Shown here: in pieces, positions 29,020 through 52,260 of the stretch
How the letters are laid out: every line of letters begins with the position of its first letter
Numbering within the stretch: the stretch's first letter is position 1
Assembly (NCBI GenBank): GCA_023251095.1
Contig: JAHEZL010000001.1
Location: forward strand, 62,001-126,000
DNA from: Flavobacteriales bacterium
GTDB taxonomy: Bacteria; Bacteroidota; Bacteroidia; Flavobacteriales_C; GCA-002722245
Direction of reading: 5' to 3'
DNA: 64,000 nucleotides
Made by a program: the position numbers and the translations under genes
The notes under the pieces: generated by a model
The model's input: the letters and a program-made list of their open reading frames with translations, nothing else
Told to the model about the DNA's origin: nothing
Database searches by the model: none

Positions 29020-29104
29020 GAATAGTCCATGAAATATTCATCATTCAAAAAAACTAACCTATAATGAATATTCCATCTGACCTTAAAAAGAAAAATATCT
29101 ACAG

Positions 29105-30490: not shown

Positions 30491-30516
30491 CTTCGCACTT
30501 CCATTAAAAATAAGGC

Positions 30517-35045: not shown

Positions 35046-37250
35046 CTATTTCATTACAACAATAGTTTTCACCACGCTTTCATTTCCTTTTTTTATTGTG
35101 ATGAAATACAAGCCATTTTCCAGATTATTTATGGATAACGACATATTATTCTCTCCCGAATTAAGCACTTGCACATAATTCAAAACCTCCTGCGACAAGG
35201 AATTGATAAAACTAATAGAAATCTGCTCATCACTTCCCGAATTCAATTTAATATTCAATATTTCACTCGCCGGATTTGGATATATCAACAAATTAGTGCT
35301 TTCATCAATGCTTATTCCTGTAGCGCAATTAGAGGCACTTACGGTTTCTGTGAGCGTTTTAGCAGTGCCCACACAATTGCGTACACTTGTTTCGGTAACA
35401 CTGATCACTCCGCCCGTCGGACCGGAATTCATTGTGATCGATTTAGTTCCTTGTCCGGAAACAATAGTAGCACCTCCCGGTACCGTCCAGTTGAAGGTAG
35501 ATCCCGCAAATCCAGTTGTTGCAAAAACTATCCCTGTTCCGTTAGAACAATTGGCCGCCTGACCGGTAATTGCAGTTGTAACCGGAGTATTGCCAACACT
35601 TTTAAAATCATCAAAATAATAAGTGTGCGAAGTGTAGGAATTCGGTTTGAAAAGAATGACAATCTGATTTAATGAGTCTCCGCTTAAAAGCACATCAGGA
35701 GCATCTTTCAGCGTGAATTTCAAATTGGTCCAGGTATTGGGTGCGCCGGTAATAGCAGTATATCTACTATGAATACCATTAGGCCAACCCTTAGGTGTTT
35801 TCAAACGGTTTTCCAGCTGAATCATTACTTCTGTTCCCGCAGGCGCATCACTGCGTACCATCATATTGAAAGCGGCTGTTCCATTTTTATAACTGTCGGC
35901 ATTGCCTATCACAATATCATTGTAGGCCAATACATCATATTGCGATCCGCCGTTCCTTTCATATTTCCCCACCAGATTAGAAGTGTTGGGCGCTGCTTTG
36001 GCAGGATTATTAAAAGTTCCGTTAGGAAAAGAATTGGTAGTAGTACTCAATCTGTTCATCCAACCGGTAGAAAAATTAAATCCTAAATTACGGGTAGATG
36101 GTCCTTCAAAATCCTCCAGTACCATCGTACAGGTATTGGCCACCACAGATACCGGCAAGCTTGAAGTAGAAGCTGTACAAGATCCTCCTGCTGGCGTGAT
36201 GACAACAGAAACATTTCCACTTACCGCAGCAGCACCATAATCCACTGTGATTTGGCTAGTACCCGCACCAGATTTTACAGTGGCACCAGAAGGAAGACTC
36301 CAGCTATAACTGTTGCCAACCACAGAAGGAACAGAATACACTACGCCTTTTTCACCCTGCAACACTTTTGCATCTCCTGTAATTTGCACTGCCGATGGCG
36401 TACTGTAAACTCGTACATAATCCACCAGCATACTTAATGGATAACGTGAATTATTGGGTGTCGCCATCCCCGGAAACCAGCCATTGATAGCCATATTAAA
36501 GATGATGTAAAACTTATTGTTATCATCAAAAGGCCATGCACCGGCGATGGTATTGCCACTGCTCATTGTAGCGCCTATCTGGATATTGTCTACAAAAAAC
36601 TTAATGGAATTGGGTGCCCAGTCGACACGGTACACATGAAAATCCTTTGATAAATCGCCATTTGGCATCGTGGTGGTATTGATGGTTACACCACCCGTTC
36701 CGCTGGCCTGATTTGCTCCGGCATAATAATGCAACGTACCATTGTATTTCCATTCATTGTACTGGTTACCGGTTTCCATGATATCAATTTCACCTGTGTG
36801 CGGCCAATTGTTGGTTTGTGGTAACATCCAGAAGCCAGGCCATAATTTACTGTCGTTGAAAGGCTCAGGCACTTTTATTCTGGCTTCAAAAGATCCATAT
36901 TTCCAGTCGCCTTTACCCAATGAACGAATTCTTCCACTGGTATAACTGGCTCCTAAATAATTTTCGGCACGGGCAGTGATGACGAGATTTCCTCCGGTGA
37001 CATTTACGTTTTCAGGCCGACTGGTATAATACTGACTCTCCTGGTTTCCCCAGCCCACATCGAGTCCGTCATTGGTGCCGTTACCAATCTGGTAGGACCA
37101 TTTGGATAAATCCAGACTGCTTCCATTGAATTCATCCGACCATACCAATTGTGAGCATTGGGAATAAGCAGAAGAGAATAAGAATAGACAAAATAATGCG
37201 GCAAGTAATTTCCTGCCCCATGCATTAAGCATAGTAATTTTAGTGGTCAT
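35046..37250 (-). CDS. Secreted GH16 beta-glucanase with PKD-like and CBM-like domains, T9SS tail
   Basis: 734 residues. Signal peptide to about SAYSQ at 30. The GH16 catalytic domain (about 31-290) begins LVWSDEFNGSSLDLSKWSYQ, and the nucleophile/acid motif is GEIDIMETGNQ. The family hydrolyses beta-1,3(-1,4)-glucans such as laminarin or lichenan. Then come a PKD-like domain (about 290-372), a beta-sandwich of about 180 residues beginning CTMVLEDFEGPSTRNLGFNF that resembles a carbohydrate-binding module, a second PKD-like domain, and a type A sorting domain (LLIYPNPASEILNIKLNSGS). The start could also be ATG 37232. It faces away from the esterase genes and is flanked by a terminator on its upstream side. 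Confidence 0.9.
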   Translation of the reverse strand: MTTKITMLNAWGRKLLAALFCLFLFSSAYSQCSQLVWSDEFNGSSLDLSKWSYQIGNGTNDGLDVGWGNQESQYYTSRPENVNVTGGNLVITARAENYLGASYTSGRIRSLGKGDWKYGSFEARIKVPEPFNDSKLWPGFWMLPQTNNWPHTGEIDIMETGNQYNEWKYNGTLHYYAGANQASGTGGVTINTTTMPNGDLSKDFHVYRVDWAPNSIKFFVDNIQIGATMSSGNTIAGAWPFDDNNKFYIIFNMAINGWFPGMATPNNSRYPLSMLVDYVRVYSTPSAVQITGDAKVLQGEKGVVYSVPSVVGNSYSWSLPSGATVKSGAGTSQITVDYGAAAVSGNVSVVITPAGGSCTASTSSLPVSVVANTCTMVLEDFEGPSTRNLGFNFSTGWMNRLSTTTNSFPNGTFNNPAKAAPNTSNLVGKYERNGGSQYDVLAYNDIVIGNADSYKNGTAAFNMMVRSDAPAGTEVMIQLENRLKTPKGWPNGIHSRYTAITGAPNTWTNLKFTLKDAPDVLLSGDSLNQIVILFKPNSYTSHTYYFDDFKSVGNTPVTTAITGQAANCSNGTGIVFATTGFAGSTFNWTVPGGATIVSGQGTKSITMNSGPTGGVISVTETSVRNCVGTAKTLTETVSASNCATGISIDESTNLLIYPNPASEILNIKLNSGSDEQISISFINSLSQEVLNYVQVLNSGENNMSLSINNLENGLYFITIKKGNESVVKTIVVMK

Positions 37251-37418
37251 AGTTAAGTTGTTTTAAGTTATAGGTTGTTGTGAATATCAATAGAAAATTT
37301 ATGAAAACCAAAAATTATTAATCGTAACTTATTGACAATTAAATAGTTAAATACATTCGCTTTACACTTAAACAACACACTTCACATTTTCTGATGGCTT
37401 GAAAACAGTGAAGAAAAT

Positions 37419-37447
37419 ATTGCGAAAATGATTTTATGAATCGCAAT
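37419..37447 (-). promoter_or_regulatory. Possible operator upstream of the GH16 gene
   Basis: ATTGCGA and TCGCAAT form a perfect inverted repeat with a 15-base centre, about 169 bases before the GH16 start. The composition is loosely like the TTTGC elements found before the esterase genes, but the spacing pattern does not match, so binding by the same regulator is only a possibility. Confidence 0.3.
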
Positions 37448-37481
37448 TCATCGCACCTAAATCACAACTTATTTTTTTGAA

Positions 37482-37514
37482 ACAAAAAAAACAGGCGGAA
37501 AAAATCCGCCTGTT
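37482..37514 (-). terminator. Rho-independent terminator after the SGNH gene
   Basis: On the minus strand AACAGGCGGA pairs with TCCGCCTGTT across five bases and is followed by eight T residues. It lies about 26 bases after the SGNH hydrolase stop. Confidence 0.9.
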
Positions 37515-37539
37515 AAGAAAAGTAGCCAGTATTTTTTTT

Positions 37540-38877
37540 TTATTCAAACATTACCTTCATCGTAATCGAATCAGCCTTTTCACCCATTATCTTAATGATA
37601 TATAGTCCATTACTTAAATCATTTCCATTCCACGACAAAGAATTAAATCCTTGGCTATTCAACAAAAAATCATTAGTGTAAACGAGCTTTCCGCTAATAG
37701 AATAAATACAGACAGAATATTTTCCCGCATAATTTACCGATAGTTGCAAATGGGATTTATCCATCATTTTTATTTTAATCCCTTCCTCCATCTCTGTATT
37801 TTCTTCGGAAACCGAAGTGTTTCCGCATGCATTGATTTTTGTATACAAACTATTGGCCAAGGCATTTGCTCCGTATTCACTTAAGTGAGTGGGATCACCG
37901 GAAGCCAACATAGATGCATCGGAAATATCCGGACCTTTAATCAAACACAATAAATTATCGTTGACTTGCCTCGCTGTCACCACCTCTTCCACCATTGCTC
38001 GGAAATCCGCTAAGGAATAAGGCGCAGCACCTGAATTATCAGAAGAATAAATTGGCGTGATGCAATATATTTTGGCCAAAGGATGATACGCTCTCAGTGA
38101 ATCCAGCAATTTACCATATTCCGTTTTTTTGCCGGCCAAACTACCCGTTGAATATTTAAAATCGTTGAATCCTATTTTTATGGTGATATAATCAACATGC
38201 TTTCCTTTTGTGTTGAGGGCAATAGCCCAGCCCAGTGTAGCTCCTGCCACTGCAATATTGTGTAAATCCCAACCCATTTTATTGGCCAGTATAAAAGGAT
38301 AGGTTTTTGCGGATGAAACGTACTGGCCAGTTCCGTGCGTTATAGAATTTCCTATAGATACATAAACCGGTTTATTCAATGCTCCCGGATCAGTTAAAAC
38401 ATATCCATCTGCCAATTGCATACTGGTAAAATCCACTGCCCATAAATTAGGTAGGGACACTTCAAAAGTTGTTTCGCTTCCAGGAGTGGGATTGTTCACT
38501 GTAAATGAAAGAGAAGAATAAGTGGCGATAGAAATTCCTCCCACAAAAACAGAAAATCCATTGGTAGGAGTTGCTCCAATCGTTCCTCCTGTGGCGCGTT
38601 GGGTAAAAGCCATATCAACAGTTGGACTGGCGGTTTTAAACCTTATCCTTACTCCTGTTTGTGTAATCACCCATTGATTGATCCAGGTGCCTGCAATGCC
38701 CGACTCCCAATTGTTCATCATGGAAGTCAGATGACGGTTGAACTCTACTTTTGACGGAGTAACCATAGGATAAAAAACACCATCGTAAGAAATGTTCGGA
38801 TCATCTAAAGGAACAGTCACTTTTGCAAAAGAGAACTGAACGATGAACAACAATATTAAGAGGAAGATTTTTCGCAT
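37540..38877 (-). CDS. Secreted SGNH/GDSL hydrolase with T9SS type A tail
   Basis: I start at ATG 38875-38877 (MRKIFLLILLFIVQFSFA), 445 residues; sixteen more codons are open upstream but precede the signal peptide. Residues about 25-185 form an N-terminal beta-sandwich. The SGNH domain starts at YVSIGNSITHGTG (catalytic Ser), with the third block IKIGFNDF and the C-terminal catalytic pair GDPTHLSEYG (Asp and His). The layout resembles Lipase_GDSL_3-type carbohydrate esterases. The last 70 residues are a type A sorting domain ending DSITMKVMFE. Probably a polysaccharide deacetylase. The upstream element at 38984-39017 ties it to the other two esterase genes. Confidence 0.85.
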   Translation of the reverse strand: MRKIFLLILLFIVQFSFAKVTVPLDDPNISYDGVFYPMVTPSKVEFNRHLTSMMNNWESGIAGTWINQWVITQTGVRIRFKTASPTVDMAFTQRATGGTIGATPTNGFSVFVGGISIATYSSLSFTVNNPTPGSETTFEVSLPNLWAVDFTSMQLADGYVLTDPGALNKPVYVSIGNSITHGTGQYVSSAKTYPFILANKMGWDLHNIAVAGATLGWAIALNTKGKHVDYITIKIGFNDFKYSTGSLAGKKTEYGKLLDSLRAYHPLAKIYCITPIYSSDNSGAAPYSLADFRAMVEEVVTARQVNDNLLCLIKGPDISDASMLASGDPTHLSEYGANALANSLYTKINACGNTSVSEENTEMEEGIKIKMMDKSHLQLSVNYAGKYSVCIYSISGKLVYTNDFLLNSQGFNSLSWNGNDLSNGLYIIKIMGEKADSITMKVMFE

Positions 38878-38904
38878 AAAATTTAGATTTATTGGTTTAT
38901 TCCA

Positions 38905-38912
38905 CCAAGGTA
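38905..38912 (-). promoter_or_regulatory. Candidate -7 promoter element of the SGNH gene
   Basis: The minus strand reads TACCTTGG, one base off the Bacteroidota -7 consensus TAnnTTTG. It lies 72 bases after the operator copy and 28 bases before the start codon. The same 72-base spacing occurs at the 40318 gene. Confidence 0.4.
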
Positions 38913-38983
38913 GATGCCCGCACAAAACTTTGCTTTGTAGAGAATGAAAAGCACTTGACTGTTTTGTAATTTCTTAATGAAAT

Positions 38984-39017
38984 CAAAGAATGCAAAGTGA
39001 TTTACAGGAAATGCAAA
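38984..39017 (-). promoter_or_regulatory. Candidate AraC-type operator, copy 1
   Basis: On the minus strand, TTTGCATTT begins at 39017, TGTAAA starts 11 bases later and TTTGCAT starts 21 bases later. The same three words at the same offsets occur at 40181 and 44034. The element ends 107 bases before the SGNH start codon. The 10.5/21-base phasing puts the words on one face of the helix, as expected for AraC-family binding. Confidence 0.7.
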
Positions 39018-39052
39018 TAAAGAAGAGGCCTCTTTAGCGGCAAAATTTAATC

Positions 39053-40132
39053 TTACTGCTCCCGAAATTGTTTCGGACTCACCCCTACTTCCGTTTTAAA
39101 CACACGGTTGAAATGGGAGATATTATTGTATCCCGATTTGTAGGCGATATCAGAAACCGGAAGATCCGATTCTTTTAATAAGCGTTTTACCTCAGCGAGC
39201 CGGATTTGATTCAGATAATTTTTAAACGACGAACTGTGGTTGTCTTTTAATAACTGTCCGATTTCCCGCGCCGAAATACCCAGTTCACGCTGCACATCCA
39301 TTTGCGTTAGTTCAGGATTGCTGTAATTTTTAGAAAGGTATTGAACGATCAAACCCGTTTTATCTTTAGCCTCTGCCTGAATTTCATTGGCTACAAAAGG
39401 AACCAGCACTTTTTTCTTACGCGAAAGCAAAACATAAATCCCCATTGCGCCGTAGCCCAACAAGGCAATTCCAGCAAAAAGCAAATAAACAAAAGTATTG
39501 TCGTTGGTAAACTCAATGGAACTTACTTCAATTTCATCTTCAGCGCCTTTCCCCTGCTCCTGTCCGTTGCCCACTACAAAATAATTAAGGCGACTGAAAT
39601 CGGTATTTTTAAAATCTTTCTCTGTTAACTGATGCTGGCGGTACCACCAACTGGGAGTAGTAAAATCAGAACGTTTTATTTCATAGGTTTTTTCACCGGT
39701 ATAGTCTAGAACGGTAGTAAAAGGAATACTCGACAAAGGTTTTGTATTGGAAGTAAATCCTTTATAATCCAAGGTAAACGACAAAGGAATACGTTTTGAA
39801 TTTTTCGCTTTCAAATGAATTTCAATGCTATTGTAATCGGCTATGCTGAATAAATTATCCGCCGAATCTTTCTTACAGATATAAAAACCCGTGAAAGGTT
39901 CTTCCATAGCAGTAGTGAGCCTGTATTTTAAATGTATTTTCCCTGAATCCAAAGTGGCATTGGAATAAGAATAATTATCGGACAAGGCTTCATGAAAAGT
40001 AGCAAAAGTAAAATCAGAATTTTTATCAAAAGGAAGAATAACAATACGATTGAAATTTAAACTGAAAAAGAAAAAAAACAGCAAAAACCCTGTAAATACT
40101 AATAAAAAAATATTTCGTTGCCCTTTCGTCAT
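39053..40132 (-). CDS. Membrane-anchored AraC-type regulator with periplasmic sensor
   Basis: 359 residues. TM1 lies at about 9-30 (FLLVFTGFLLFFFFFSLNF). Residues about 31-215 are an extracytoplasmic beta-rich domain with many Ser/Tyr/Trp residues, of galactose-binding or CBM-like appearance (FYICKKDSADNLFSIADYNS, TPSWWYRQHQLTEKDF). TM2 is at about 216-236 (VYLLFAGIALLGYGAMGIYV), and the C-terminal AraC HTH spans about 255-359 (LTQMDVQRELGISAREIGQL, LPVSDIAYKSGYNNISHFNR, FKTEVGVSPKQFREQ). It probably senses a periplasmic oligosaccharide and controls the flanking esterase and cellulase genes. It lies between two esterase units and shares its promoter region with the 40318 gene. Confidence 0.85.
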   Translation of the reverse strand: MTKGQRNIFLLVFTGFLLFFFFFSLNFNRIVILPFDKNSDFTFATFHEALSDNYSYSNATLDSGKIHLKYRLTTAMEEPFTGFYICKKDSADNLFSIADYNSIEIHLKAKNSKRIPLSFTLDYKGFTSNTKPLSSIPFTTVLDYTGEKTYEIKRSDFTTPSWWYRQHQLTEKDFKNTDFSRLNYFVVGNGQEQGKGAEDEIEVSSIEFTNDNTFVYLLFAGIALLGYGAMGIYVLLSRKKKVLVPFVANEIQAEAKDKTGLIVQYLSKNYSNPELTQMDVQRELGISAREIGQLLKDNHSSSFKNYLNQIRLAEVKRLLKESDLPVSDIAYKSGYNNISHFNRVFKTEVGVSPKQFREQ

Positions 40133-40180
40133 TTCACCAGCAAGATAAATAAAATCAATGCATTAACAAACAAGATCAAC

Positions 40181-40213
40181 TTTGCATTTTATGTAAAATA
40201 CTTTGTTTTTATG
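40181..40213 (+). promoter_or_regulatory. Candidate AraC-type operator, copy 2
   Basis: TTTGCATTT at 40181, TGTAAA at 40192 and TTTG at 40202: the same words and offsets (0, 11, 21) as at 39017 and 44034. It ends 105 bases before the esterase ATG and 48 bases from the divergent regulator ATG, so it may also mediate autoregulation. A further half-element, an inverted TTTGC/GCAAA pair with a seven-base centre, lies at 40248-40264. Confidence 0.7.
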
Positions 40214-40284
40214 CGTTTTCAAAGCACCGCATTAAAAATCATGTAATTTGCATTTAAAGCAAAGCAAAATCGTTTCCGCTCATA

Positions 40285-40292
40285 TACTTTTG
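40285..40292 (+). promoter_or_regulatory. Candidate -7 promoter element
   Basis: TACTTTTG matches the Bacteroidota -7 consensus TAnnTTTG and lies 26 bases before the ATG of the 40318 esterase gene. No TTTG is found at the -33 position, which would fit an activator-dependent promoter. Confidence 0.5.
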
Positions 40293-40317
40293 ACTTAAAC
40301 TACTAAACTAATAACAT

Positions 40318-41829
40318 ATGTCAAAAAATTTAAAAACAATGGTAAAAAGAACCGTCACAACTATAAAAAAATTGTGCTTGCTGGTTTGCTTAGGATTAAT
40401 GAATGTATGTATGGGACAATACCCGACCCATCTGATTCCGGCCAATGACCCCAAAATACAATACATTGGAAGAATTGACTTCATTAATCCTTTAGCACCA
40501 GCTTTTTCTTTCCCCGGAGTTAGCATTTCCGCAAAATTCAGCGGAACAGCCATCAGTGCCGATTTTAAAGATTACGGAACAGGAAATGCAACTTCTACTA
40601 ATTATTATAATATATACATCGACAACCAATTTGTGAAAGCCCTGAAAGTAGTTAGCTCCACTACCAATTACATTTTGGCATCCGGTTTAAGTAATGATGT
40701 CCATACTATTTTAGTTACTAAAAGAACAGAATCATCGGTAGGTAAAAGCTCCTTCAAAGGATTTTACATCGAAGGTGTTGCCTTGGAAACTCCCGATGCC
40801 CTGCCTTCTAAAAAAATTGAATTCATTGGTGATTCCTGGACTTGCGGTTACGGCAATGAATATTCAGGAGCCGGAGCAAATACAGGTTTCACCTCTAAAA
40901 ATGAAGACAATTATTCGGCCTGGGGAGCTATCACCTCCCGCAGGTTAAACGCCCAATACCATTGCACAGCTTACTCGGGAAGAGGCTTATATAGAAACAA
41001 TGATGGGAATAAAACTACTGTAATCCCTAATGTTTACAACAGAATTTTTCCCGACGATGCAGCTTCTGTTTGGAATTTCAATAACTATATTCCCGATGTT
41101 GTAGTGATTCATCTAGGCACCAACGATTTTGCCAATGAGCAAACCTGGGCAAGCAATCACTCTACTTTGGATTCGGCCTCTTATGTAAACAAATACATTG
41201 GATTTATTTCTGATATCAGAATAGCCTACGGAAGCTCTACAAAAATTGTGTGTGTGAACGGAAGTTCCATTTCTGTTTGGTCAGGATTTGATCAATACAA
41301 CCGATGGAACAATTACATGAACGCTATTTACAATCACTTTGTAGGACTAAGCGACAATAATGTTTACAAATTCAAACTCGCTACTCAGAACGCTCCATAC
41401 GGTGAGGACTGGCATCCTGCCAAACATGAACACATCAGCATGGCCGATCAGATCACTGCCTACATTCAGCAAATCACCGGCTGGCAGGATTGTGCAAGTG
41501 TAAATTCAGGAAATGCTTACTTCGACGAATGTAAAATATGTGTTGGCGGAAATACAGGAAAAACTGCCTGTGTACCAAGTAGTACTTCTATTGATGATAT
41601 AGTGCTTGACAATCATACTTTGCTACTTTATCCAAATCCTGCCAACTCTGCCATTAACATCAATGATGGCGACCAGCAAACCACCTGGAGCATATTCAAT
41701 CAATTGGGAGAAATGGTGCTGAGTGGCAATGGGAAAACCTGTCCGCTTGATAAACTAAGTAATGGCATCTATCATATTTTAACATTGAATGGTGAAAATC
41801 AAAGTGCCGGAACATTTGTAAAAGAATAA
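40318..41829 (+). CDS. CE2-type SGNH esterase with T9SS type A tail
   Basis: 503 residues, signal peptide around 18-33 (LCLLVCLGLMNVCMGQ). Residues 40-160 are the jelly-roll domain of the CE2 family (KIQYIGRIDFINPLAPAFSF, GVSISAKFSGTAISADFKD). The SGNH domain shows IEFIGDSWTCGYGNE (Ser), VVIHLGTNDFANEQ and EDWHPAKHEH (His). CE2 enzymes remove acetyl groups from xylan or mannan, and some also bind cellulose. A Cys-rich linker (DCASVNSGNAYFDECKICVG) of the kind found in Cytophaga-type glycosidases precedes a type A sorting domain. The GH9 gene follows after one base, so the two form an operon. Confidence 0.88.
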   Translation: MSKNLKTMVKRTVTTIKKLCLLVCLGLMNVCMGQYPTHLIPANDPKIQYIGRIDFINPLAPAFSFPGVSISAKFSGTAISADFKDYGTGNATSTNYYNIYIDNQFVKALKVVSSTTNYILASGLSNDVHTILVTKRTESSVGKSSFKGFYIEGVALETPDALPSKKIEFIGDSWTCGYGNEYSGAGANTGFTSKNEDNYSAWGAITSRRLNAQYHCTAYSGRGLYRNNDGNKTTVIPNVYNRIFPDDAASVWNFNNYIPDVVVIHLGTNDFANEQTWASNHSTLDSASYVNKYIGFISDIRIAYGSSTKIVCVNGSSISVWSGFDQYNRWNNYMNAIYNHFVGLSDNNVYKFKLATQNAPYGEDWHPAKHEHISMADQITAYIQQITGWQDCASVNSGNAYFDECKICVGGNTGKTACVPSSTSIDDIVLDNHTLLLYPNPANSAININDGDQQTTWSIFNQLGEMVLSGNGKTCPLDKLSNGIYHILTLNGENQSAGTFVKE

Positions 41830-41830
41830 A

Positions 41831-43999
41831 ATGAAAAAAATACACTTTTTTTTTTGTGTCCTATTGTCTTTTAATGGCATGAGTCAAACCGTAAGTTCGT
41901 ATATAATTATCGACCAATTCGGATACACGCCCAATGCTCAAAAAACAGCTGTATTGCGCAACCCTGAAATTGGATTTGACGCAGCCGAAAACTATAGTCC
42001 GGGTGCAACTTATGCAGTAGTCGACGCATCTACCTGCCTGCAGGTTTTTACGGGAAGCGCAGCAATATGGAGCAATGGTAAAACAGATTCTGTTTCAGGG
42101 GATAAAGCATGGTGGTTTGATTTTTCGGCGGTGACAACACCAGGTATTTATTATATCCTGGATGTTGACCACAGTCTTCGCTCACACAGCTTTGAAATAA
42201 GAGACAACATATACAGTATACCTCTTAAGCATGCAGTAAGAACATTTTATTATCAAAGATCCGGCGCAGCCAAAATTACACCTTATGCTGAATCAGGTTG
42301 GATAGATGGAGTCAACCATGTTGGTCCGCTACAGGATAAAAACTGCCGAAGCTACACTGCTCCAAACGACATCTCTACAGAACGCGATGTTCACGGCGGC
42401 TGGTTTGATGCCGGTGATTATAATAAATACACCAACTGGACAGGCAATTATATTATTGAAATGCTGAAGGCATATGAAGAAAATCCAACGGTTTGGACCG
42501 ACGACTATAATCTTCCCGAATCAGGAAATGGTATTCCTGATCTTTTGGACGAAGTGAAATGGGGAATGGATTATCTTTTACGACTGCAAAAAACCGATGG
42601 CAGTGTAATCAGCCTCGTTGGTGCTTCTCATGCAAGTCCGCCTTCTGCAACAACAGGAAAAAGTATTTATGGAGGGGTAAACACTTCTTCAGCCTTAAAA
42701 GCCGCTGCTACATACGCCTTTGGTTACAGGGTTTTTAAAGCCATAGGATTAACCGCTTATGCCGACACTTTAAAAACCGCCGCAATAAAAGCCTGGAACT
42801 GGGCCGATGCCAATCCATCAGTAATATGGGCAAACACCGACGCTGCCTATCAAAGTGTATCTCCGAGCAGTAGTGCCAATTCCGAAGTGGGTAATTATGA
42901 AAGAATTATATATAAGCTGGAAGCTGCTGTTTACCTTTTTGACATCAGTGCTGATTCAAAATACAAAACCTATTTCGATAATAATTACACTCAATCACAT
43001 CTCTACCAATGGTATTATGCCTATCCATATGAAGCTGGTTATCAGGATGTGTTGCTTCAATACACCAAACTATCGGGTGCAACAACAGCTGTGGCAAACA
43101 CCATAAAAAGTCGCTATAGCACGGGAATGAATGCTGCTATATCCTTTGGAGCATACGACAGTAAAAAAGATCCGTACATGACTTACATTGATTCTTATAC
43201 CTGGGGCAGCAATTCCATTAAATGCAACCAGGGTAATATGTTTTTCAATGTAAGCACATACAATATCAATGCTGCACGGAATACTGATGCTGTAAAAGCA
43301 GCCGAAAACTTCATACATTATATTCACGGCGTAAACCCATTGGGGAAAGTGTATTTGTCAAACATGAACAATTACGGAGCTGAAAATTCTGTTGATGAAT
43401 TTTACCATGGATGGTTTGCGCACGGCAGCAGCAAATGGGACAAAGTTGGCGTATCCACTTATGGACCTCCTCCCGGTTTTCTGGTGGGCGGACCAAATCC
43501 TTCCTACAAAGTACATTCCTGTTGCCCGAACAACTGTGGCGATGCTACAAACAATGCTCTATGTTCTTCGGTTAATTTATCCAGAATCATTAATCAACCA
43601 TCGCAAAAATCCTATATGGACTTTAACAACGGATGGCCGATTGACTCATGGGAAGTAACCGAAAACAGTTGTGGTTATCAAGTGGCTTATATTCGCTTAT
43701 TGTCAAAATTCACAGTCAACAATTCCAATTCGTCTCCCAACGAAGCTTCCTGTACCACTTCCGTTCCGGAAGAAAAATCATTTGATTTCTCTCTTTATCC
43801 CAACCCGTCCGAAACCTCTTTTACTATTCAGGCAAAAGGCACTTTTTCTGTTAAAGTTATTTCACTTGAAGGAAAATTAATTGATTCTTTTGAAGGGAAA
43901 TCAACCCTATCTTTTGGATCCAATCTTGCTGCAGGTTGTTACTTTGTACAAGTATATTCAAGAGATCTTTCTGAAACCAGAAAAATAATAAAGTACTAA
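41831..43999 (+). CDS. GH9 endoglucanase with CelD-like Ig domain and T9SS tail
   Basis: 722 residues with a short signal peptide (FFFCVLLSFNGMSQ). An N-terminal CelD_N Ig-like domain occupies about 21-125 (IIIDQFGYTPNAQKTAVLRN). The GH9 catalytic domain follows: the base aspartates are in GGWFDAGDYNKYTNW (D193 and D196), LPESGNGIPDLLDEVKWGMD lies downstream, the conserved histidine block is at HGVNPLGKVYLSNM and SCCPNNCGDA, and the catalytic acid is probably the Glu near residue 611 in SWEVTENSCGYQVAY. A type A sorting domain (FSLYPNPSETSFTIQAKG) ends it. It cleaves internal beta-1,4-glucosidic bonds of cellulose. It is coupled to the CE2 gene upstream. Confidence 0.92.
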   Translation: MKKIHFFFCVLLSFNGMSQTVSSYIIIDQFGYTPNAQKTAVLRNPEIGFDAAENYSPGATYAVVDASTCLQVFTGSAAIWSNGKTDSVSGDKAWWFDFSAVTTPGIYYILDVDHSLRSHSFEIRDNIYSIPLKHAVRTFYYQRSGAAKITPYAESGWIDGVNHVGPLQDKNCRSYTAPNDISTERDVHGGWFDAGDYNKYTNWTGNYIIEMLKAYEENPTVWTDDYNLPESGNGIPDLLDEVKWGMDYLLRLQKTDGSVISLVGASHASPPSATTGKSIYGGVNTSSALKAAATYAFGYRVFKAIGLTAYADTLKTAAIKAWNWADANPSVIWANTDAAYQSVSPSSSANSEVGNYERIIYKLEAAVYLFDISADSKYKTYFDNNYTQSHLYQWYYAYPYEAGYQDVLLQYTKLSGATTAVANTIKSRYSTGMNAAISFGAYDSKKDPYMTYIDSYTWGSNSIKCNQGNMFFNVSTYNINAARNTDAVKAAENFIHYIHGVNPLGKVYLSNMNNYGAENSVDEFYHGWFAHGSSKWDKVGVSTYGPPPGFLVGGPNPSYKVHSCCPNNCGDATNNALCSSVNLSRIINQPSQKSYMDFNNGWPIDSWEVTENSCGYQVAYIRLLSKFTVNNSNSSPNEASCTTSVPEEKSFDFSLYPNPSETSFTIQAKGTFSVKVISLEGKLIDSFEGKSTLSFGSNLAAGCYFVQVYSRDLSETRKIIKY

Positions 44000-44033
44000 G
44001 TACTTTTCACTCCCCTGTTGAGACTTTAATTCC

Positions 44034-44066
44034 TTTGCATTTTTTGTAAAAAGATTTGTTTTTATA
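44034..44066 (+). promoter_or_regulatory. Candidate AraC-type operator, copy 3
   Basis: TTTGCATTT at 44034, TGTAAA at 44045 and TTTG at 44055, offsets 0, 11 and 21 as in the other two copies. It is the closest in sequence to copy 2 and ends 106 bases before the ATG of the 44172 esterase gene. Confidence 0.72.
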
Positions 44067-44128
44067 GCAAATCCAACAGTTACTTATCTATTTGCACGTT
44101 CCGCAAATCGAAAAAACACTTCCTCCTA

Positions 44129-44136
44129 TACATTTG
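44129..44136 (+). promoter_or_regulatory. Candidate -7 promoter element
   Basis: TACATTTG matches TAnnTTTG and lies 36 bases before the ATG of the 44172 esterase gene, 63 bases after the operator copy. The spacing is nine bases shorter than at the 40318 gene, close to one helical turn. Confidence 0.45.
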
Positions 44137-44171
44137 AGTAATTGGCAAATTAATAACTAAAACTTAGTGTT

Positions 44172-45587
44172 ATGACAAAAGAAAAAATATTGTTTCTACT
44201 GATACTTTTTATAAATGTATCGATGCTAAACGCAACAAGTATTTCACCTGACAATTCGAAAATTCAATACTTCGGCAGATGGGATCACAGTACCCCTACA
44301 CAGCCGATTGGCGGATGGGGATCGGTTTATATTAAAATTAAATTCACGGGTACCGGAATTTCCATTAAGCTGAATGATGCTGCAAATGCCTATCAGTATT
44401 CTATTGATGGAGGCGCAATTACAGTACTTCAATCGGGACAACCTTCCTCAATTACATTGGCCTCAGGATTAAACAACACCGAACACTCACTTGCTTTTTA
44501 CAGAAGAAGCGGCGGCGGCTGGGGACGAACTGTATTTAACGGTTTCGAAATCACCGGAGGAGACATCATTGATCCTGCTTCTCAAAAGTGTTTGAAGTTT
44601 GAATTTGTTGGAAATTCAATCAGTGTTGGATTTAACAACGAAGGAGCTCCCGGAAGCACCAATTCGGCGAATACCGAAAATGGATATATGTCGTGGGGGC
44701 CTCAGCTGGCAAGATTGTATGATGGTGACTGGCGTGTTGAAGCGCACTCCGGACAAGGCATGTACATGAATTTATATAACAACCCCAATAGTCCCGACCA
44801 ATGGACTATGGCCGATGAATTTGAATTACAATATTTCCCGGTATGGATTGGTGGAGATAACCAAAAACCCTGGACTTTTAACGATGGCTTCCAGCCTGAT
44901 GTGTTTATGTGTGCCTTGGGCACCAATGATTTCGCGAACGCAAGTTCCTATCCAACACGCGCACAATTCAATGGAAGATATAATGAATTCTTAAATCTGG
45001 TGCGCTCAAAATATCCCAATGCCATCATCATCCTGTTTGGAATGTGTTTAAAAACATGGGATGTACCGGGCAGTCAGTGGGACATCGCCAACGACAATCT
45101 TAAAGCATTGGTGGAGGATAGAAAAACTGCTGGCGACAACAACATCTTTTTTGTGAATCCAAGACCCGATAAAACCGATGCAACATTATGGCTTCCTAAC
45201 CAAACAGATTATGTAGGCGACTGGACTCACCCTACTGTTGCCGGTGATGCAATCATTGCATCAAAAATGAAAGCATTTATGGATGGAAATACTACTGTCA
45301 AAAACAAACTGGATCAATTGATCACAGGATGCAGCGCAACTGCAATTGACGAAAGTGATCTTTCAAAAACCAATCTATTAAATGTTTATCCCAACCCGGC
45401 ATATAATATCCTAACTATTGACAATATGGACAATCAAACAACATGGAAGATATACAATCAAATAGGAGAGTTGGTTCAGCAAGGAAGCGGAAAATATTGC
45501 AACATTGAAAATCTGAGTCCTGGAGTTTATCATATCGTTGCGGTTTCGGGAGAACAAAACCATATAAGTTGCTTTGTAAAAGAATAA
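44172..45587 (+). CDS. CE2-type SGNH esterase with T9SS type A tail, second copy
   Basis: 471 residues, signal peptide MTKEKILFLLILFINVSMLN. The CE2 jelly roll begins KIQYFGRWDHSTPTQPIGGW, and the SGNH domain shows FEFVGNSISVGFNNEG (Ser), FMCALGTNDFANASSY and GDWTHPTVAGDAI (His). The type A sorting domain (LNVYPNPAYNILTIDNMDNQ to CFVKE) is strikingly similar to that of the 40318 protein, so the two share a recent tail. It is a separate transcription unit with its own operator and promoter. Confidence 0.88.
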   Translation: MTKEKILFLLILFINVSMLNATSISPDNSKIQYFGRWDHSTPTQPIGGWGSVYIKIKFTGTGISIKLNDAANAYQYSIDGGAITVLQSGQPSSITLASGLNNTEHSLAFYRRSGGGWGRTVFNGFEITGGDIIDPASQKCLKFEFVGNSISVGFNNEGAPGSTNSANTENGYMSWGPQLARLYDGDWRVEAHSGQGMYMNLYNNPNSPDQWTMADEFELQYFPVWIGGDNQKPWTFNDGFQPDVFMCALGTNDFANASSYPTRAQFNGRYNEFLNLVRSKYPNAIIILFGMCLKTWDVPGSQWDIANDNLKALVEDRKTAGDNNIFFVNPRPDKTDATLWLPNQTDYVGDWTHPTVAGDAIIASKMKAFMDGNTTVKNKLDQLITGCSATAIDESDLSKTNLLNVYPNPAYNILTIDNMDNQTTWKIYNQIGELVQQGSGKYCNIENLSPGVYHIVAVSGEQNHISCFVKE

Positions 45588-45630
45588 TGAAGATGCTTTT
45601 TCTTGTAGTAGTGTAGTTGGGGATTCAGGT

Positions 45631-45678
45631 GTTCCGGGGGTTCCTGTTTTAGAGGGAAAACAGTTTTCCCCCGAGAAC
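45631..45678. promoter_or_regulatory. Long nested hairpin in the leader of the expansin operon
   Basis: GTTC-CGGGGG pairs with CCCCCG-a-GAAC around an inner CTGTTTT/AAAACAG stem with loop AGAGGG. It lies 44 bases after the esterase stop and 43 bases before the next ATG. No T-run follows on the plus strand, so a simple intrinsic terminator is unlikely; it could be an mRNA stabiliser, processing site or leader structure. Confidence 0.55.
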
Positions 45679-45720
45679 ATTCTTTGATCCAGAAAGAATT
45701 AAAAAACTAAAAATAAGTAT

Positions 45721-47241
45721 ATGGTGAAGTGGAATTTTATTTTTTGTATAGTCCTGTTTTTGAGTTCATCTTTTCATTTATTTTCTCAAACCTATGCGCA
45801 AGGAAATTATACAGGAAACGGATCATCAAAAGTAATTTCTGGTTTAGGATTTCAACCCGAATGCGTGATCATTAAATCAGCAGGCGCTTACGAAGCAGTT
45901 ATTACAACCGCCAATATGCCGGCAGGAAAAAGCAAAGCAATGGGCACTTCGGGCGTAGCCCTGGCAACCGAACAAATCAGTTCTCTTAATGCTGATGGAT
46001 TTACTATAGGTGCAGGAACTTCTACAAACAACAATAACACACAATATTACTGGATCGCCTTTAATGAAAGTACCGGTATTCATGTAGGAACTTATGTTGG
46101 CGACGGTCCCGGAAATCCTGAAACAATAAGTGGTTGCGGATTTATTCCCGACGCTTATATTTTAATGGGCGACGAAACCAGTACGGATGGAAATGCTCAA
46201 ATCAATTTAAATTCTCTTTCCGCATCGGGTAACGGGTTTTATATTTTTGACGGAGCGGTGGCTTCAGGAACTTTTAGTGCTTGGACTGCTGATGGATGGA
46301 CCACACTTGGAGGAGCAACTTCAGCCGACAACAGCGGAGTAAATTACTATTACATCGCCTTTGATGCAAATTCAAATATCAAACAAGGTTCCTATCCGTC
46401 GCTTTCTGAAGCGCAAACCGACAATTATGCTGTAAATGACATAGGTTTTCAACCCGACTTTTTAATTGCTTATCCCTATGTTTCTACACCAAGAACTCCT
46501 GTATTCAGAATGGGATCTATCAATTCGGGCGATGACAAATCCCTTTTATTTACAGCCACTGCCTCAAGCACTAATTTAATCCAGGCCTTCACTGCCAATG
46601 GTTTTACTGCAGGAAATGATGACAGAGTTCACAAGGCTTGGCAAACACAACATTATTATTTCGCTTTAAAAGGAGGTAGTGCACTCCCTGTTGATCTTAC
46701 AGAATTTGAAGTAAGCAAGCATGGAGAACAAGCTTTGATTGAATGGTCAACTGCTACAGAAATAAACAGTGATTATTATGAAGTTCTTCGATCTCCCAAC
46801 GGAATTAATTTTAAGAGCATCGGCAGAATTGAAGCTGCAAACAACAGTACACAAATTCAAAATTATTCCTTTACGGACGAACATCCGCTAGAGGGTATCA
46901 ACTATTATCGTTTAGCTGAAATTGACAATGGCGGTCGCTACGAAAAATTTAAAATAAAATCACTCACTTTCAATTTCGCCAATATCATTACTGATTTTTT
47001 TCCCAACCCGGTAAACAACAATGTTACTCTTCTTTTTAACTCGTATAGTGATGAGAATTACGATTTACAAATTTCCGACCTGCTTGGCCGAACACTTTAT
47101 TCATTGCAAACACAGGCTGTAAAAGGGATAAATCAACTTAACCTCACTACCAATAATTTATCGGCTGGAATTTATTTTATCAATTTAACAGACACGAATA
47201 ATCATGTGTCTTCAATGAAATTTATGAAATCCGAATACTAG
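45721..47241 (+). CDS. DUF7483-like beta protein with T9SS type A tail
   Basis: 506 residues, signal peptide LFLSSSFHLFSQ. Residues about 23-310 contain three similar units of roughly 80-90 residues: YTGNGSSKVISGLGFQPECV, YVGDGPGNPETISGCGFIPD and the unit with NDIGFQPDFLIAYPYVSTPR. Each pairs with WIAFN/YIAFD or a YFALKG strand. This repeated pattern resembles the DUF7483 domains of phage structural proteins. After LPVDLTEFEVSKHGEQALIE, an Ig/Fn3-like unit, the type A sorting domain starts DFFPNPVNNNVTLLFN. It is the first gene of the operon with the type-B surface protein and the expansin. Function unknown. Confidence 0.75.
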   Translation: MVKWNFIFCIVLFLSSSFHLFSQTYAQGNYTGNGSSKVISGLGFQPECVIIKSAGAYEAVITTANMPAGKSKAMGTSGVALATEQISSLNADGFTIGAGTSTNNNNTQYYWIAFNESTGIHVGTYVGDGPGNPETISGCGFIPDAYILMGDETSTDGNAQINLNSLSASGNGFYIFDGAVASGTFSAWTADGWTTLGGATSADNSGVNYYYIAFDANSNIKQGSYPSLSEAQTDNYAVNDIGFQPDFLIAYPYVSTPRTPVFRMGSINSGDDKSLLFTATASSTNLIQAFTANGFTAGNDDRVHKAWQTQHYYFALKGGSALPVDLTEFEVSKHGEQALIEWSTATEINSDYYEVLRSPNGINFKSIGRIEAANNSTQIQNYSFTDEHPLEGINYYRLAEIDNGGRYEKFKIKSLTFNFANIITDFFPNPVNNNVTLLFNSYSDENYDLQISDLLGRTLYSLQTQAVKGINQLNLTTNNLSAGIYFINLTDTNNHVSSMKFMKSEY

Positions 47242-47254
47242 AAATTTAACCCCG

Positions 47255-50200
47255 ATGAAAACACCTGGCTTATATTTTTTGAACAAAAGTTTTTACTTAT
47301 CATTCCTCCTTTCCTTCCTCCATTCAACAGGATATGCACAAACATGTTCCGGCAATAATTCCTGGGAATGGAAATCACAATCCAACTGGTTAATCACAGG
47401 CAAAAACATCCTTCAGTTTAACAACAATAAAAACATTGTTCAGAGCATTGGTGGTGGAAAAGATATTTTTTCGGATGGAAACTGCTATTGCCAGGGATTT
47501 GAAGGAACTACCTCCCCCAGCGATGATCAGGGGAATTTAATTTTTTACAGCGCAGGAAAAGTTTTTTGGGATAAAAATTATCTTAAGAAAGGAACTTTTA
47601 AAGGAAATGCAACCAGTGATCAAAACAGCGCTGTACAAGGAATTTTAACCGTACGCCATCCATTGGTTCCCGATTTATATTATGTATTCACCGGTGATGA
47701 TGAGGTAGGCGGAGCAACCAATGGCTTCCATTATCATGTAGTGGATAAAAACGGAACTTTAATCACTCCTGCCACCCCTCTTGGATTTTTCAGCTTTGAA
47801 GGAATGAATGCCACTCGTCATACCAATGGAGTTGACATATGGATCACCACCTTAGAACATGGAACAGGCATTTTTAAATCTTTTCTTTTAACCTGTAATG
47901 GTTTAAACACAACACCTGTAAATTCTCCCGTTGGCTGTAAAACAGTAGCACAGGCCATTAGAGGAGCTTTGGAGTTTTCTCCCGATGGCACTAAAGTGGG
48001 TGTTGTTCATCATGCTCCCGCCAACAGAAATGAATCTGTAATGATTATGGATTTCAACAGAACTACAGGTGTTTTATCCAACTCCTTGAAAGTTTCAGCT
48101 CAATGGAGCGGTTGGGGCTGGAGTCCGACAAACAGTGGCAGTGCTTATGACTGTGAATTCTCTCCGGATGGATCCAGATTATATATCACTTTTTTCACGG
48201 GAGGTGTTGAAGTATACGATCTATCAAGCAATAATGAAAGCACCATTTTTTCTTCCGTTAAATTATTAAACAGCGGTGGCCTTGGTTGTTTGGAAATGGG
48301 TCCCGACGGAAAAATGTATCACAACAACAGCGGGACACTAATGGTTTCTTCCGGTAATTTAAATACTGGCGCAGTGAATTTCGTTTCAAGCGGACTCACA
48401 GGTTTTAGCGGTTTGGGGTTACCCAACATGTATCTCCCTCCGCAACTGGAACCGGACATCCAGGAAGCTGGCCCCTTTTGCAATACCGACGAGGCAATTG
48501 ATTTAAATACTACCTGGCTCTGTTTGGGAAGCAATGCAGAGGATCCAAACGGCAATCCGACGAGTGTGTATTCTGGAAAAGGAATCACCGATTCAGGAAA
48601 AGGAATTTTTGATCCTAAATTAGCAGGAGAAGGAATCCACCGGATTATTTTTACCAAATGCAGTGTTGACGATACGATTTTTATTACTGTGAATAAATGC
48701 TCTGTTCTTTGTCCGGATACTTCACTAAAAAACATCACTCCTATTTGTGTTGGATCAACAGTAGATTTAAATGCTCAAAAAATCACTACTGAAAACGGAA
48801 CATGGAGCATTCAGGGCAATGGCGCAAATTACCCGACTTTAGCGGGTAATATTTTCACCACAACTGCGAACACAACATCAGGATCTTATCTTGTTCGTTA
48901 CACTTTAAATCCTTTGCCGCTTGACGCAAGCTGTCCGGCTTACGCAGAAAGAACGATTAAAATAAATAAAATTCCTTCCCTTACATTTACCACTACTGAG
49001 GTATGTGAAGGCTCAACGTTGATTACATTTAATGGCAGTCCGGCTGGCGGAACTTACAGAGGAACAGACATAGTTGGCAATACCTTCAACCCTGTTTCAC
49101 CAGGCTCCACAACAATAATTTATGTCTATACTGACAATAACGGTTGCAACGACTCTATAACAAGTACTCAGACAATAAATGCAAAACCAAATCTTGTGTT
49201 CACCACCACACCTGTGTGTGAAGGATCGAGTGAAATTAGTTTTTCAGCCGCTCCTGCCGGAGGAACTTATTCGGGAAGCGGATCTACTTTCAATCCAATA
49301 ATAGCAGGAACAACAGCCATTACTTATTCCTACACCAATGGAAAAGGCTGTAATAATTCTATAACCACTAATCAGGTAGTAAATGCTAAACCTATAGTAA
49401 CATTCACAACAACGCCGGTATGTGAAGCCTCGGGTATAATCACTTTCAATGGAATTCCAACAGGAGGAATTTACAGCGGTGCGGGAATAAGTGGTACAAC
49501 ATTTAATCCGGTAAAAGCAGGTATGCACGACATCACCTATACTTATACTGATGCCAATGGCTGCATCGATTCTGCAAAGGCCAGTCAAGAGGTGAGTGCA
49601 AAACCAATTGTATCTCTCCATGATCAAAGTATTTGTCCGGGAAGCACTGCGGAACTGGATGCAGGAATTGGAGATGGAAGCTTAACTTATTCATGGGCAC
49701 CCAACGGAGAAAACACTCAAAAAATAAGGGTAAAAAGCGACGCAATTTATTCGGTAAAAGTCACTAATAATAATGATTGTTTTACATCAGACACTGCTAT
49801 GGTAACGGTAAATGCTGATTTGAATATTGATTTAGGCCCTGATCAATCCATCTGTGCAGGTGAATCACAAACCTTCACAGCAAATTATGCCGGGAGCGGT
49901 ATCATTTATATTTGGAGCGGACCAAATACTTATAGTAATTCCACAAAGGCAATAACGGTTTCCGATGCCGGAACTTATCATGTGAATGTATCTGATCCAT
50001 CGGGATGCACTGGCAATGATGAAGTGCGGCTTATTGTAAATTCTCTACCCGCTCCAACATTAAGCGATGGAGAAATTTGTGAAGGAACTTCACATATTTT
50101 TGATGCAGGCACTTATGATTTTTATCAATGGTCGACTGGGGAAACGAGCAAAAGCATTTCAACATCGCAAAGCAACACCTTCACAATAACAGTTACTGAT

Positions 50201-51187
50201 GGCAATGGATGTAAAGGAAATACATCGGCAAATTTAATTGTGCATGCTAATCCAACAGTGGATTTAGGAAATGATTATACTGGCTGCAAAGGAAGCATCG
50301 CAACTTTTAATGCAGGAAATCCGGGAGCAAATTATGTATGGAGCAACGATTCGCTTTCGCAAAGTATTCAGGTAAATAGTCAAGGAAGATATTCTGTAAC
50401 TGTTACCGATAACAATGGATGCAAAGGTCATGATACTGTTAGCGCAACATTTGTAGAAGTACCGCAACTTGAAATTGGTGATAATATTCATTTGTGTGAA
50501 GGTCAATCGGCAAGCGTTAGTGCAGAAATAAATCCAGCATCTTCCATCCTCACCTGGAGCACTAAAGAAAATAAATTAAGCATAACAGTAAACTCCGCTC
50601 AAATTATAATAGCCACAGCTAATAATGGCGGAGGAATGTGTTCTGCCAAAGATACACTGGAAGTATTTGTACATGAAAATCCTGCTACAACAGTGCTGCA
50701 GGAACAAACCTTATGTTTTATGGATTCCATCACCTTAGCCGATCTGGATGCAGAAATCTCTGCCTTCAAATATTTATGGAACACGGGGGACACCACCAAA
50801 AGCATTCGTGTAAAAAAAGAAGGCGTTTATTCAGTGGATTTAATCAGCAAGTACGGATGCCTGTCATCGGAAGAAATCACAGTAAATGAAAAATGTGAAT
50901 CATCATTATTTGTTCCAAATGCATTTACCCCAAAAAGAAACGGAATCAATGATGTATTCTATGTAAAAGGACAAAATGTATACGATTTTGAAATGTGGAT
51001 TTTTGATCGATGGGGAGAAATGATTTACCACACTACCAATATTTCAGAAGGTTGGAACGGTAAAAGAAACAACACTATGGAAGATGCACAGATTGATGTG
51101 TATGTATGGAAAATAAACTATCGGTTTTGGGAAGATCAAGGCAAAAGATTAAGAGAAAAAGTGGGACATGTCAGCCTCATCCGATAA
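47255..51187 (+). CDS. Very large surface protein with PKD-like repeats and T9SS type B tail
   Basis: 1310 residues with a signal peptide (LSFLLSFLHSTGYAQ). Residues about 30-400 resemble a beta-propeller (SPDGTKVGVVHHAPANR, FSPDGSRLYITFFTGGVEVY, MGPDGKMYHNNSG). Then come three close repeats of about 70 residues (TTTPVCEGS, AGGTYSGSG, NGCNDSIT) and four to five Ig-like repeats with the CxGxxxxFDAGxxxxYxWSxG pattern. The end is the gliding-motility-associated C-terminal domain (T9SS type B): FVPNAFTPKRNGINDVFYVK, WIFDRWGEMIYHT, YVWKINY. The likely role is adhesion to or display on the cell surface. Placed 13 bases after the DUF7483-like gene and 41 before the expansin. Confidence 0.88.
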   Translation: MKTPGLYFLNKSFYLSFLLSFLHSTGYAQTCSGNNSWEWKSQSNWLITGKNILQFNNNKNIVQSIGGGKDIFSDGNCYCQGFEGTTSPSDDQGNLIFYSAGKVFWDKNYLKKGTFKGNATSDQNSAVQGILTVRHPLVPDLYYVFTGDDEVGGATNGFHYHVVDKNGTLITPATPLGFFSFEGMNATRHTNGVDIWITTLEHGTGIFKSFLLTCNGLNTTPVNSPVGCKTVAQAIRGALEFSPDGTKVGVVHHAPANRNESVMIMDFNRTTGVLSNSLKVSAQWSGWGWSPTNSGSAYDCEFSPDGSRLYITFFTGGVEVYDLSSNNESTIFSSVKLLNSGGLGCLEMGPDGKMYHNNSGTLMVSSGNLNTGAVNFVSSGLTGFSGLGLPNMYLPPQLEPDIQEAGPFCNTDEAIDLNTTWLCLGSNAEDPNGNPTSVYSGKGITDSGKGIFDPKLAGEGIHRIIFTKCSVDDTIFITVNKCSVLCPDTSLKNITPICVGSTVDLNAQKITTENGTWSIQGNGANYPTLAGNIFTTTANTTSGSYLVRYTLNPLPLDASCPAYAERTIKINKIPSLTFTTTEVCEGSTLITFNGSPAGGTYRGTDIVGNTFNPVSPGSTTIIYVYTDNNGCNDSITSTQTINAKPNLVFTTTPVCEGSSEISFSAAPAGGTYSGSGSTFNPIIAGTTAITYSYTNGKGCNNSITTNQVVNAKPIVTFTTTPVCEASGIITFNGIPTGGIYSGAGISGTTFNPVKAGMHDITYTYTDANGCIDSAKASQEVSAKPIVSLHDQSICPGSTAELDAGIGDGSLTYSWAPNGENTQKIRVKSDAIYSVKVTNNNDCFTSDTAMVTVNADLNIDLGPDQSICAGESQTFTANYAGSGIIYIWSGPNTYSNSTKAITVSDAGTYHVNVSDPSGCTGNDEVRLIVNSLPAPTLSDGEICEGTSHIFDAGTYDFYQWSTGETSKSISTSQSNTFTITVTDGNGCKGNTSANLIVHANPTVDLGNDYTGCKGSIATFNAGNPGANYVWSNDSLSQSIQVNSQGRYSVTVTDNNGCKGHDTVSATFVEVPQLEIGDNIHLCEGQSASVSAEINPASSILTWSTKENKLSITVNSAQIIIATANNGGGMCSAKDTLEVFVHENPATTVLQEQTLCFMDSITLADLDAEISAFKYLWNTGDTTKSIRVKKEGVYSVDLISKYGCLSSEEITVNEKCESSLFVPNAFTPKRNGINDVFYVKGQNVYDFEMWIFDRWGEMIYHTTNISEGWNGKRNNTMEDAQIDVYVWKINYRFWEDQGKRLREKVGHVSLIR

Positions 51188-51228
51188 CACTGCAATTACT
51201 AAACACTTTTACTTAAACCATAAACTTT

Positions 51229-52209
51229 ATGAAAAAACAATTACCTATTCTGCCCTTCGCTTTATTGGCAGGCGGATTATTAAATGCACAATCACCCTGC
51301 GACGCAACAATTTACAGCGGCGGAGAAGCTACTTATTACACACTTATTGAACAAGCTCCATCAGGCTCACGAAGTGGACATTGTTCTTTTTATGCCGACA
51401 ACATCAAGCCATACTACGGCGCCATGTACACACCTTTGTATGCCAACTCAGCTGAATGTGGAGTGTGCCTGGAAGTAAGTGGTACAGCAGGAACAAAAAT
51501 TATTGAAATTGTAGATGAATGTCCGGATTGCAAAAAAATAGGAGATATTGATTTGAGTCCAACAGCATTTCAAGAAATCATAGGTCCTTTAAGCATTGGA
51601 AGAAGCAATATCCAATGGCACGAAGTAGCTTGCCCGTGGGGAGCATCACCTATCAATGTTACCACTCAATCCACCAATCAGTGGTATGCAAAAGTGACCA
51701 TAGGAAAACACAAAAACAGAATCAACAAAGTAGAAATTTACGATCCTTATTCCTCTGCATGGGTAAACATGAACAGAACTGCCGACAATGGCTGGATCAA
51801 CGCTTCATTGATAAGTATCACAGGTACAACCAATGTTCGGATCACTGATGTGTTCGGTCAGATACTTACAGTAAGCGGCGTGGAAATCGCAAGTGGCATT
51901 GATAAAACTTTTCAGGGAACCTCAAACTTCACTCCCTGCCTGAGTACCGATATTGCAGAGTATGAAATGGTACGACACATTAGTGTATATCCAAATCCAA
52001 TGTCGGATGGATTAGTGATTGATGATATTCAGGGAATAAAAACAATTCATCTTTATACTATTCTTGGCGAACTGATTTATAGTGAATCTCTCACTGGCAC
52101 AGCTTCCCGAACACAAATATATTTACCGGGTTTAGCAGCAGGAACCTATACTATTCAGCTTTCAAACGACAAACAAGTAGTATACAACAGTAAATTAATC
52201 AAGATGTAA
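51229..52209 (+). CDS. Bacterial expansin with T9SS type A tail
   Basis: 326 residues, signal peptide to LLNAQ at 21. D1, the double-psi beta-barrel, spans about 24-140: GGEATYYTLI, AECGVCLEVSG, IVDECPDC (D96) and IGDIDLSPTAFQEI (D108). These two Asp residues correspond to the positions essential for loosening activity in Bacillus EXLX1. D2 (CBM63 type) spans about 145-235 with the aromatic cellulose-binding platform as W152, Y153 and Y171 (NQWYAKVTIGKHKNRINKVE, YDPYSSAWVNM). Extra cysteines (C77/C80/C98/C101) may form disulfides or bind metal. A type A sorting domain (SVYPNPMSDGLVIDD) replaces the usual plain end. Expansins loosen cellulose without hydrolysis, so it should assist the GH9 and CE2 enzymes. 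Confidence 0.88.
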   Translation: MKKQLPILPFALLAGGLLNAQSPCDATIYSGGEATYYTLIEQAPSGSRSGHCSFYADNIKPYYGAMYTPLYANSAECGVCLEVSGTAGTKIIEIVDECPDCKKIGDIDLSPTAFQEIIGPLSIGRSNIQWHEVACPWGASPINVTTQSTNQWYAKVTIGKHKNRINKVEIYDPYSSAWVNMNRTADNGWINASLISITGTTNVRITDVFGQILTVSGVEIASGIDKTFQGTSNFTPCLSTDIAEYEMVRHISVYPNPMSDGLVIDDIQGIKTIHLYTILGELIYSESLTGTASRTQIYLPGLAAGTYTIQLSNDKQVVYNSKLIKM

Positions 52210-52223
52210 ATTCATTTTTCAAT

Positions 52224-52256
52224 AAAAAAGTCCCGGAAATTTTCCGGGACTTTTTT
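52224..52256. terminator. Bidirectional rho-independent terminator
   Basis: AAAAAAGTCCCGGAAA pairs with TTTCCGGGACTTTTTT around a minimal loop. It has A/T runs on both sides and lies between the stop codons of the expansin gene and the convergent type-B surface protein gene, so it should end both transcripts. Confidence 0.92.
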
Positions 52257-52260
52257 ATCT

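Follow-up and report, generated by a model that had tools for sequence, protein, structure and literature searches.

Expansin locus and gene cluster

The window analysed here is a 64,000-nucleotide stretch of a Flavobacteriales contig. It contains an intact open reading frame located exactly at positions 51229–52209 (+), whose 326 codons encode a protein of 326 aa. Profiles, phmmer and fold comparison identify this protein as an expansin with a C-terminal type A sorting domain of the type IX secretion system (T9SS), preceded by a putative signal peptide recognised by eye. The same-strand genes leading up to it are, in order, a CE2 carbohydrate (acetyl) esterase (40318–41829), a GH9 cellulase with CelD_N and GH9 domains (41831–43999), a further CE2 carbohydrate (acetyl) esterase (44172–45587), and a DUF7483 protein (45721–47241), each with a type A T9SS tail, followed by a CHU_C (type B T9SS) protein with Ig-like repeats (47255–51187), which ends 41 nt upstream of the expansin. 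A terminator with a 17-bp stem (52222–52258, +) lies directly after the expansin, between it and a convergent CHU_C gene.

The divergent side of the cluster encodes an AraC-family regulator (39053–40132, −), a GDSL esterase, and a GH16 protein with a T9SS tail (35046–37250, −), so that positions 35046–52209 of the window, from GH16 to expansin, form a cluster of T9SS-tailed polysaccharide genes together with their neighbouring regulator. The ORFs read in this interval included no recognisable SusC/SusD gene, so the cluster may not be a classical PUL.

The preliminary description of this DNA drew attention to the type-B neighbour of the expansin and missed the upstream GH9 cellulase and CE2 esterases; the GH9 cellulase is the more informative neighbour. 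The host genome (3.59 Mb in 43 contigs) encodes six GH5 and five GH9 proteins, one of the latter being that of the expansin cluster, while CHU_C proteins sharing the N-terminal family of the window protein occur at about nine places. In genome G007 a relative of the cluster GH9 (51% identity) lies away from any expansin neighbourhood. Near the expansins of relatives, the cluster genes gave no matches other than one weak CHU_C match (G007) and one weak GH9 match (G004). The proposed operon with the type-B protein is physically plausible, given the narrow gap, the shared strand and the strong terminator, and the genes may be co-transcribed, but the arrangement is unconserved: an expansin–CHU_C pairing was not found around the relatives' expansins examined, and a conserved operon of this kind was rejected. 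A GH9 gene directly followed by a CHU_C gene of the same N-terminal family was also observed at G000:C2:103770-107214 and G003:C25:2491-5756.

Domain composition and fold of the expansin

The protein comprises a putative signal peptide (about residues 1–21), D1 (DPBB, about 24–136), D2 (CBM63-like, about 139–232) and the sorting domain. Its N-terminus, MKKQLPILPFALLAGGLLNAQ|SPC, read by eye, resembles a Sec signal without a lipobox. The NCBIfam model NF041144 (expansin_EXLX1) covers residues 32–233, and therefore both D1 and D2, with 127.7 bits (E 3.2e-37) against a curated cut-off of 100 bits. The Pfam DPBB model gives a weak match of 18.8 bits, under its own cut-off, so the evidence for the EXLX1 type comes from NF041144, from a phmmer search of the PDB, and from the fold. 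The best phmmer matches include CmEXLX2 of Clavibacter (4jcw, E 4e-22) and EXLX1 of B. subtilis (2bh0, E 1.4e-14).

An AlphaFold model was built from only ten related sequences; its mean pLDDT is 69.5, indicating moderate confidence, with low confidence in D1 and values below 50 for residues 96–103. In a Foldseek search of the PDB, all 12 of the 12 best matches to this model are expansins, originating from Clavibacter, Streptomyces, Bacillus, Talaromyces, Xanthomonas, maize, timothy grass and cotton. VIA-align superposed model residues of about 24–236 on 4jcw/4js7 with a Z of 14.8 (187 residues for 4jcw) and on 2bh0, the structure of BsEXLX1, with a Z of 14.2 (190 residues), so that at moderate model confidence the protein takes the two-domain fold of a DPBB and an Ig-like D2. 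The window protein is therefore a genuine two-domain EXLX1-type bacterial expansin, and the presence of both expansin domains, as originally described, is upheld by the NF041144 and fold matches. Equivalent residues were assigned from sequence alignments alone, since the model has low confidence near D96.

Sorting domain and secretion machinery

The C-terminal domain (residues 249–326; 51973–52206, +) was also correctly recognised at the outset as a T9SS type A sorting domain. Over residues 253–325 it scores 39.4 bits with PF18962 (Pfam) and 38.4 bits with TIGR04183, both over their cut-offs, and model residues 249–326 match the solved T9SS C-terminal domains (CTDs) of mirolase (8qb1, Z 9.6, rmsd 1.5), RemA (8gl6, Z 9.4) and PorZ (5m11, Z 9.0). 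The host genome encodes SprA, two PorU-like proteins and three PorV-family proteins, all over cut-off. For cargo with a type A CTD, PorV acts as the shuttle and PorU carries out the processing, after which the cargo is either bound to A-LPS or set free (PMC10202324). Export of the window expansin by the T9SS is thus supported, as a prediction, by domain matches, fold, and the genomic complement of SprA, PorU and PorV. At G000:C2:48471-56989, two full-length PorU-like sortases, both well over the family cut-off, adjoin each other with a PorV gene beside them.

Key residues of D1 and D2

The roles of D71, Y73, D82, W125, W126, Y157 and K119 in the Bacillus subtilis (Bs) protein are summarised in PMC11040781. 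In our alignments, the D1 motif DECPDCKKIGDID (51514–51552, +), which runs from D96 to D108, places these two aspartates at Bs D71 and D82, in agreement with the preliminary description, and both are invariant in the clade formed by the expansins of the host's bacterial family, as is W152. The position of Bs Y73 is occupied by C98; because a cysteine is found there in all other compared expansins except Bacillus, a tyrosine of the Bs Y73 type does not define expansins at large.

In D2, W152 and Y153 (51682–51687, +) correspond to Bs W125 and W126, which bears out that part of the aromatic cellulose-binding set named earlier. The third member named, Y171, was wrongly assigned: the HMMER and the MAFFT alignment both pair Bs Y157 with D186 (51784–51786, +), and column 171 varies even within the bacterial family, where it contains Y, L, K, Q or S. 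The position of the glucan-contacting lysine, Bs K119, is held by T146 (51664–51666, +). These two replacements are not peculiar to the window copy. Across 29 tabulated expansin domains (12 from the family and 17 from outside, some of the outside rows being near-duplicates and the PDB rows fragments), column 186 is D in 12/12 family domains and Y in 17/17 others, while column 146 is K in none of the 12 and in all 17, respectively. W189 was considered as a substitute aromatic and rejected, since it aligns with F or W in all compared expansins (F160 in Bs); judged from the alignment it is probably an ordinary D2 residue, not a compensation.

The window expansin therefore departs from the CBM63 platform of the BsEXLX1 type, having two of its three aromatics (W152, Y153) and a replacement of the canonical lysine. 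For this reason it may prefer other glucans than Bacillus EXLX1 does, and the replacements of Bs K119 and Y157 could weaken its binding to cellulose.

Distribution and phylogeny

The host Bacteroidota bacterium is probably aquatic, and the metagenome-assembled genome of one near relative is labelled LacPavin, suggesting lake water. A second T9SS-tailed expansin, 61% identical to the window copy, is encoded on the same contig. This paralogue sits in an Rny–expansin–Kup order (gene names by eye) that is conserved in three genomes. T9SS-tailed expansins are kept in all four other genomes of the genus and in two of five further genomes of the family, where they occur as stand-alone, N-terminally extended, and double expansins, the last with CBM5/12. 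One such double form (G007 L032:6821-9613) is a 930-aa protein with two expansin domains, Gly-rich linkers, CBM5/12-like repeats and a terminal T9SS tail. In G003, a distant expansin-like protein (L028:964-2082, contig C36) of 372 aa as read, from a partly masked locus, has a T9SS tail near threshold; Pfam assigns it no expansin domain with confidence.

Within the phylum, expansins are rare: 4/395 sampled genomes encode them, the host included. In the tree, the family expansins make up one side of a branch with support of 100/100 and a long stem (1.09), apart from the phylum's other expansins. As to a possible transfer from plants or fungi, bacterial expansins score best among the sequences compared, and the long-stemmed clade has no close outside relative. 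Two of the phylum's other expansins bear T9SS-like tails of their own, one detected by PF18962 and one by eye; as these belong to a separate clade, expansins probably acquired the tail on at least two occasions. Among the other phylum expansins (L065, L072, L060-L064), some resemble tandem lipoproteins and others have T9SS-like tails, a pattern that suggests repeated tail gain.

Comparison with known systems

The preliminary description took plain Sec secretion as the norm for bacterial expansins and a T9SS-tailed one as new. Neither point holds against the literature. A 2023 review (PMC10501053), with reference to de Sandozequi et al. (2022, Protein Sci, 10.1002/pro.4315), attributes a C-terminal T9SS domain to the expansins of the FCB (Fibrobacteres-Chlorobi-Bacteroidetes) superphylum and reports lipoprotein signals in a third of diderm expansin precursors, so the kind was, by that account, already described in 2022. 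The FCB proteins combine an expansin and a C-terminal T9SS sorting domain in Bacteroidota, as the window protein does, and nothing defining differs. The present analysis adds to this the location within a cellulase cluster, the replacement of two D2 contact residues throughout the clade, and the evidence for separate tail acquisitions.

CmEXLX2 of Clavibacter michiganensis (4jcw, 4js7) is the best match in both sequence and structure and shares the D1 cysteines, but it is actinobacterial, retains K and Y at the D2 positions, and is without a T9SS tail. EXLX1/YoaJ of Bacillus subtilis (2bh0) has the same two-domain fold and the equivalents of D71/D82 and W125/W126, at about 25% identity over the structural alignment; relative to it, the window expansin adds the T9SS tail and D1 cysteines and has T146 for K119 and D186 for Y157. 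The phylum expansins of G109, G304, G254 and G451 also contain expansin domains, with T9SS-like tails in G109 and G451, but form a separate clade that retains K and Y, several of them being lipoprotein-like and lacking a T9SS tail. Cel9A of Cytophaga hutchinsonii likewise represents a T9SS-tailed GH9 route to cell-surface cellulose degradation; as an enzyme and not an expansin, it serves here as a model of secretion logic alone.

Predicted role and alternative interpretations

Very probably, the window expansin is exported by Sec and then by the T9SS and loosens cellulose non-enzymatically for co-secreted cellulases and acetyl-esterases. Its most likely role is that of a surface-displayed or released cellulose-loosening helper for the secreted GH9/GH5 cellulases of a detritus degrader. 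The precursor would first be carried by Sec and then by the T9SS, with its type A tail expected to be recognised via PorV and cut by PorU, after which the mature protein would either stay on the cell surface, attached to anionic LPS, or be released. There, D1 and D2 would lie along a beta-glucan and loosen hydrogen-bonded microfibrils without hydrolysis, and the loosened chains would become accessible to the cluster GH9, the other GH5/GH9 enzymes and the acetyl-esterases.

The D2 replacements, an invariant aspartate for the third aromatic and a non-basic residue for the lysine, raise the possibility, which we consider rather unlikely on balance, that the clade retains the expansin fold but now acts on a different polysaccharide, such as acetylated hemicellulose, an algal glucan, chitin or a cell-wall glycan. 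The uniformity of D186 and the loss of the lysine in every family domain, set against Y and K in every domain elsewhere, are consistent with such a shift, as are the long, fully supported stem of the clade, the joining of two expansin domains to CBM5/12 in one relative, and the two CE2 esterases of the cluster. However, W152 and Y153 are kept and the D1 aspartates are invariant, and the GH5/GH9-rich genomes of the genus leave cellulose as a natural substrate. We advance only tentatively a fuller reading of the clade: that the family represents a separate expansin lineage with a remodelled D2 face (Y157 to D and K119 lost in every member seen), that expansins of the phylum gained T9SS tails in at least two independent events, and that the proteins of this lineage may bind, and loosen at the cell surface, a wall polysaccharide of another kind.

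It was also proposed originally that wall loosening is coupled to cell-surface attachment through the type-B neighbour, the expansin then acting as an adhesion module that, with the CHU_C protein, couples the cell to a plant or algal wall. We regard this as improbable. The spacing, common strand and terminator directly 3′ of the expansin fit it, but CHU_C proteins of that family are numerous in the genome, the pairing was found neither beside the relatives' expansins examined nor beside the same-genome paralogue, and a non-exhaustive search recognised no porP/sprF gene beside the expansin; being unconserved, the pairing is weak evidence for coupling. Still less probable, and in our view very doubtful, is that the window copy is a degenerate expansin-like relic, a duplicate in the course of losing function. 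The syntenic copy of the genus is indeed the other paralogue, and the window copy lies at a non-conserved place, but its ORF is intact, D1 and most D2 features are retained, and it shares 61% identity with the paralogue, including both aspartates and the conserved cysteines.

Under the favoured interpretation, as a cellulose-loosening helper, the protein is a clean and complete example of an expansin within a Bacteroidota secreted-cellulase cluster, from probably aquatic bacteria and not from plant pathogens. The clade to which it belongs offers natural variants of the D2 face, which bear on the question of which D2 contacts wall loosening needs.

Elsewhere in the window, at positions 28174–31470, two transketolase halves flank a gene for a von Willebrand A-like protein (29105–30490), these names having been assigned by eye.
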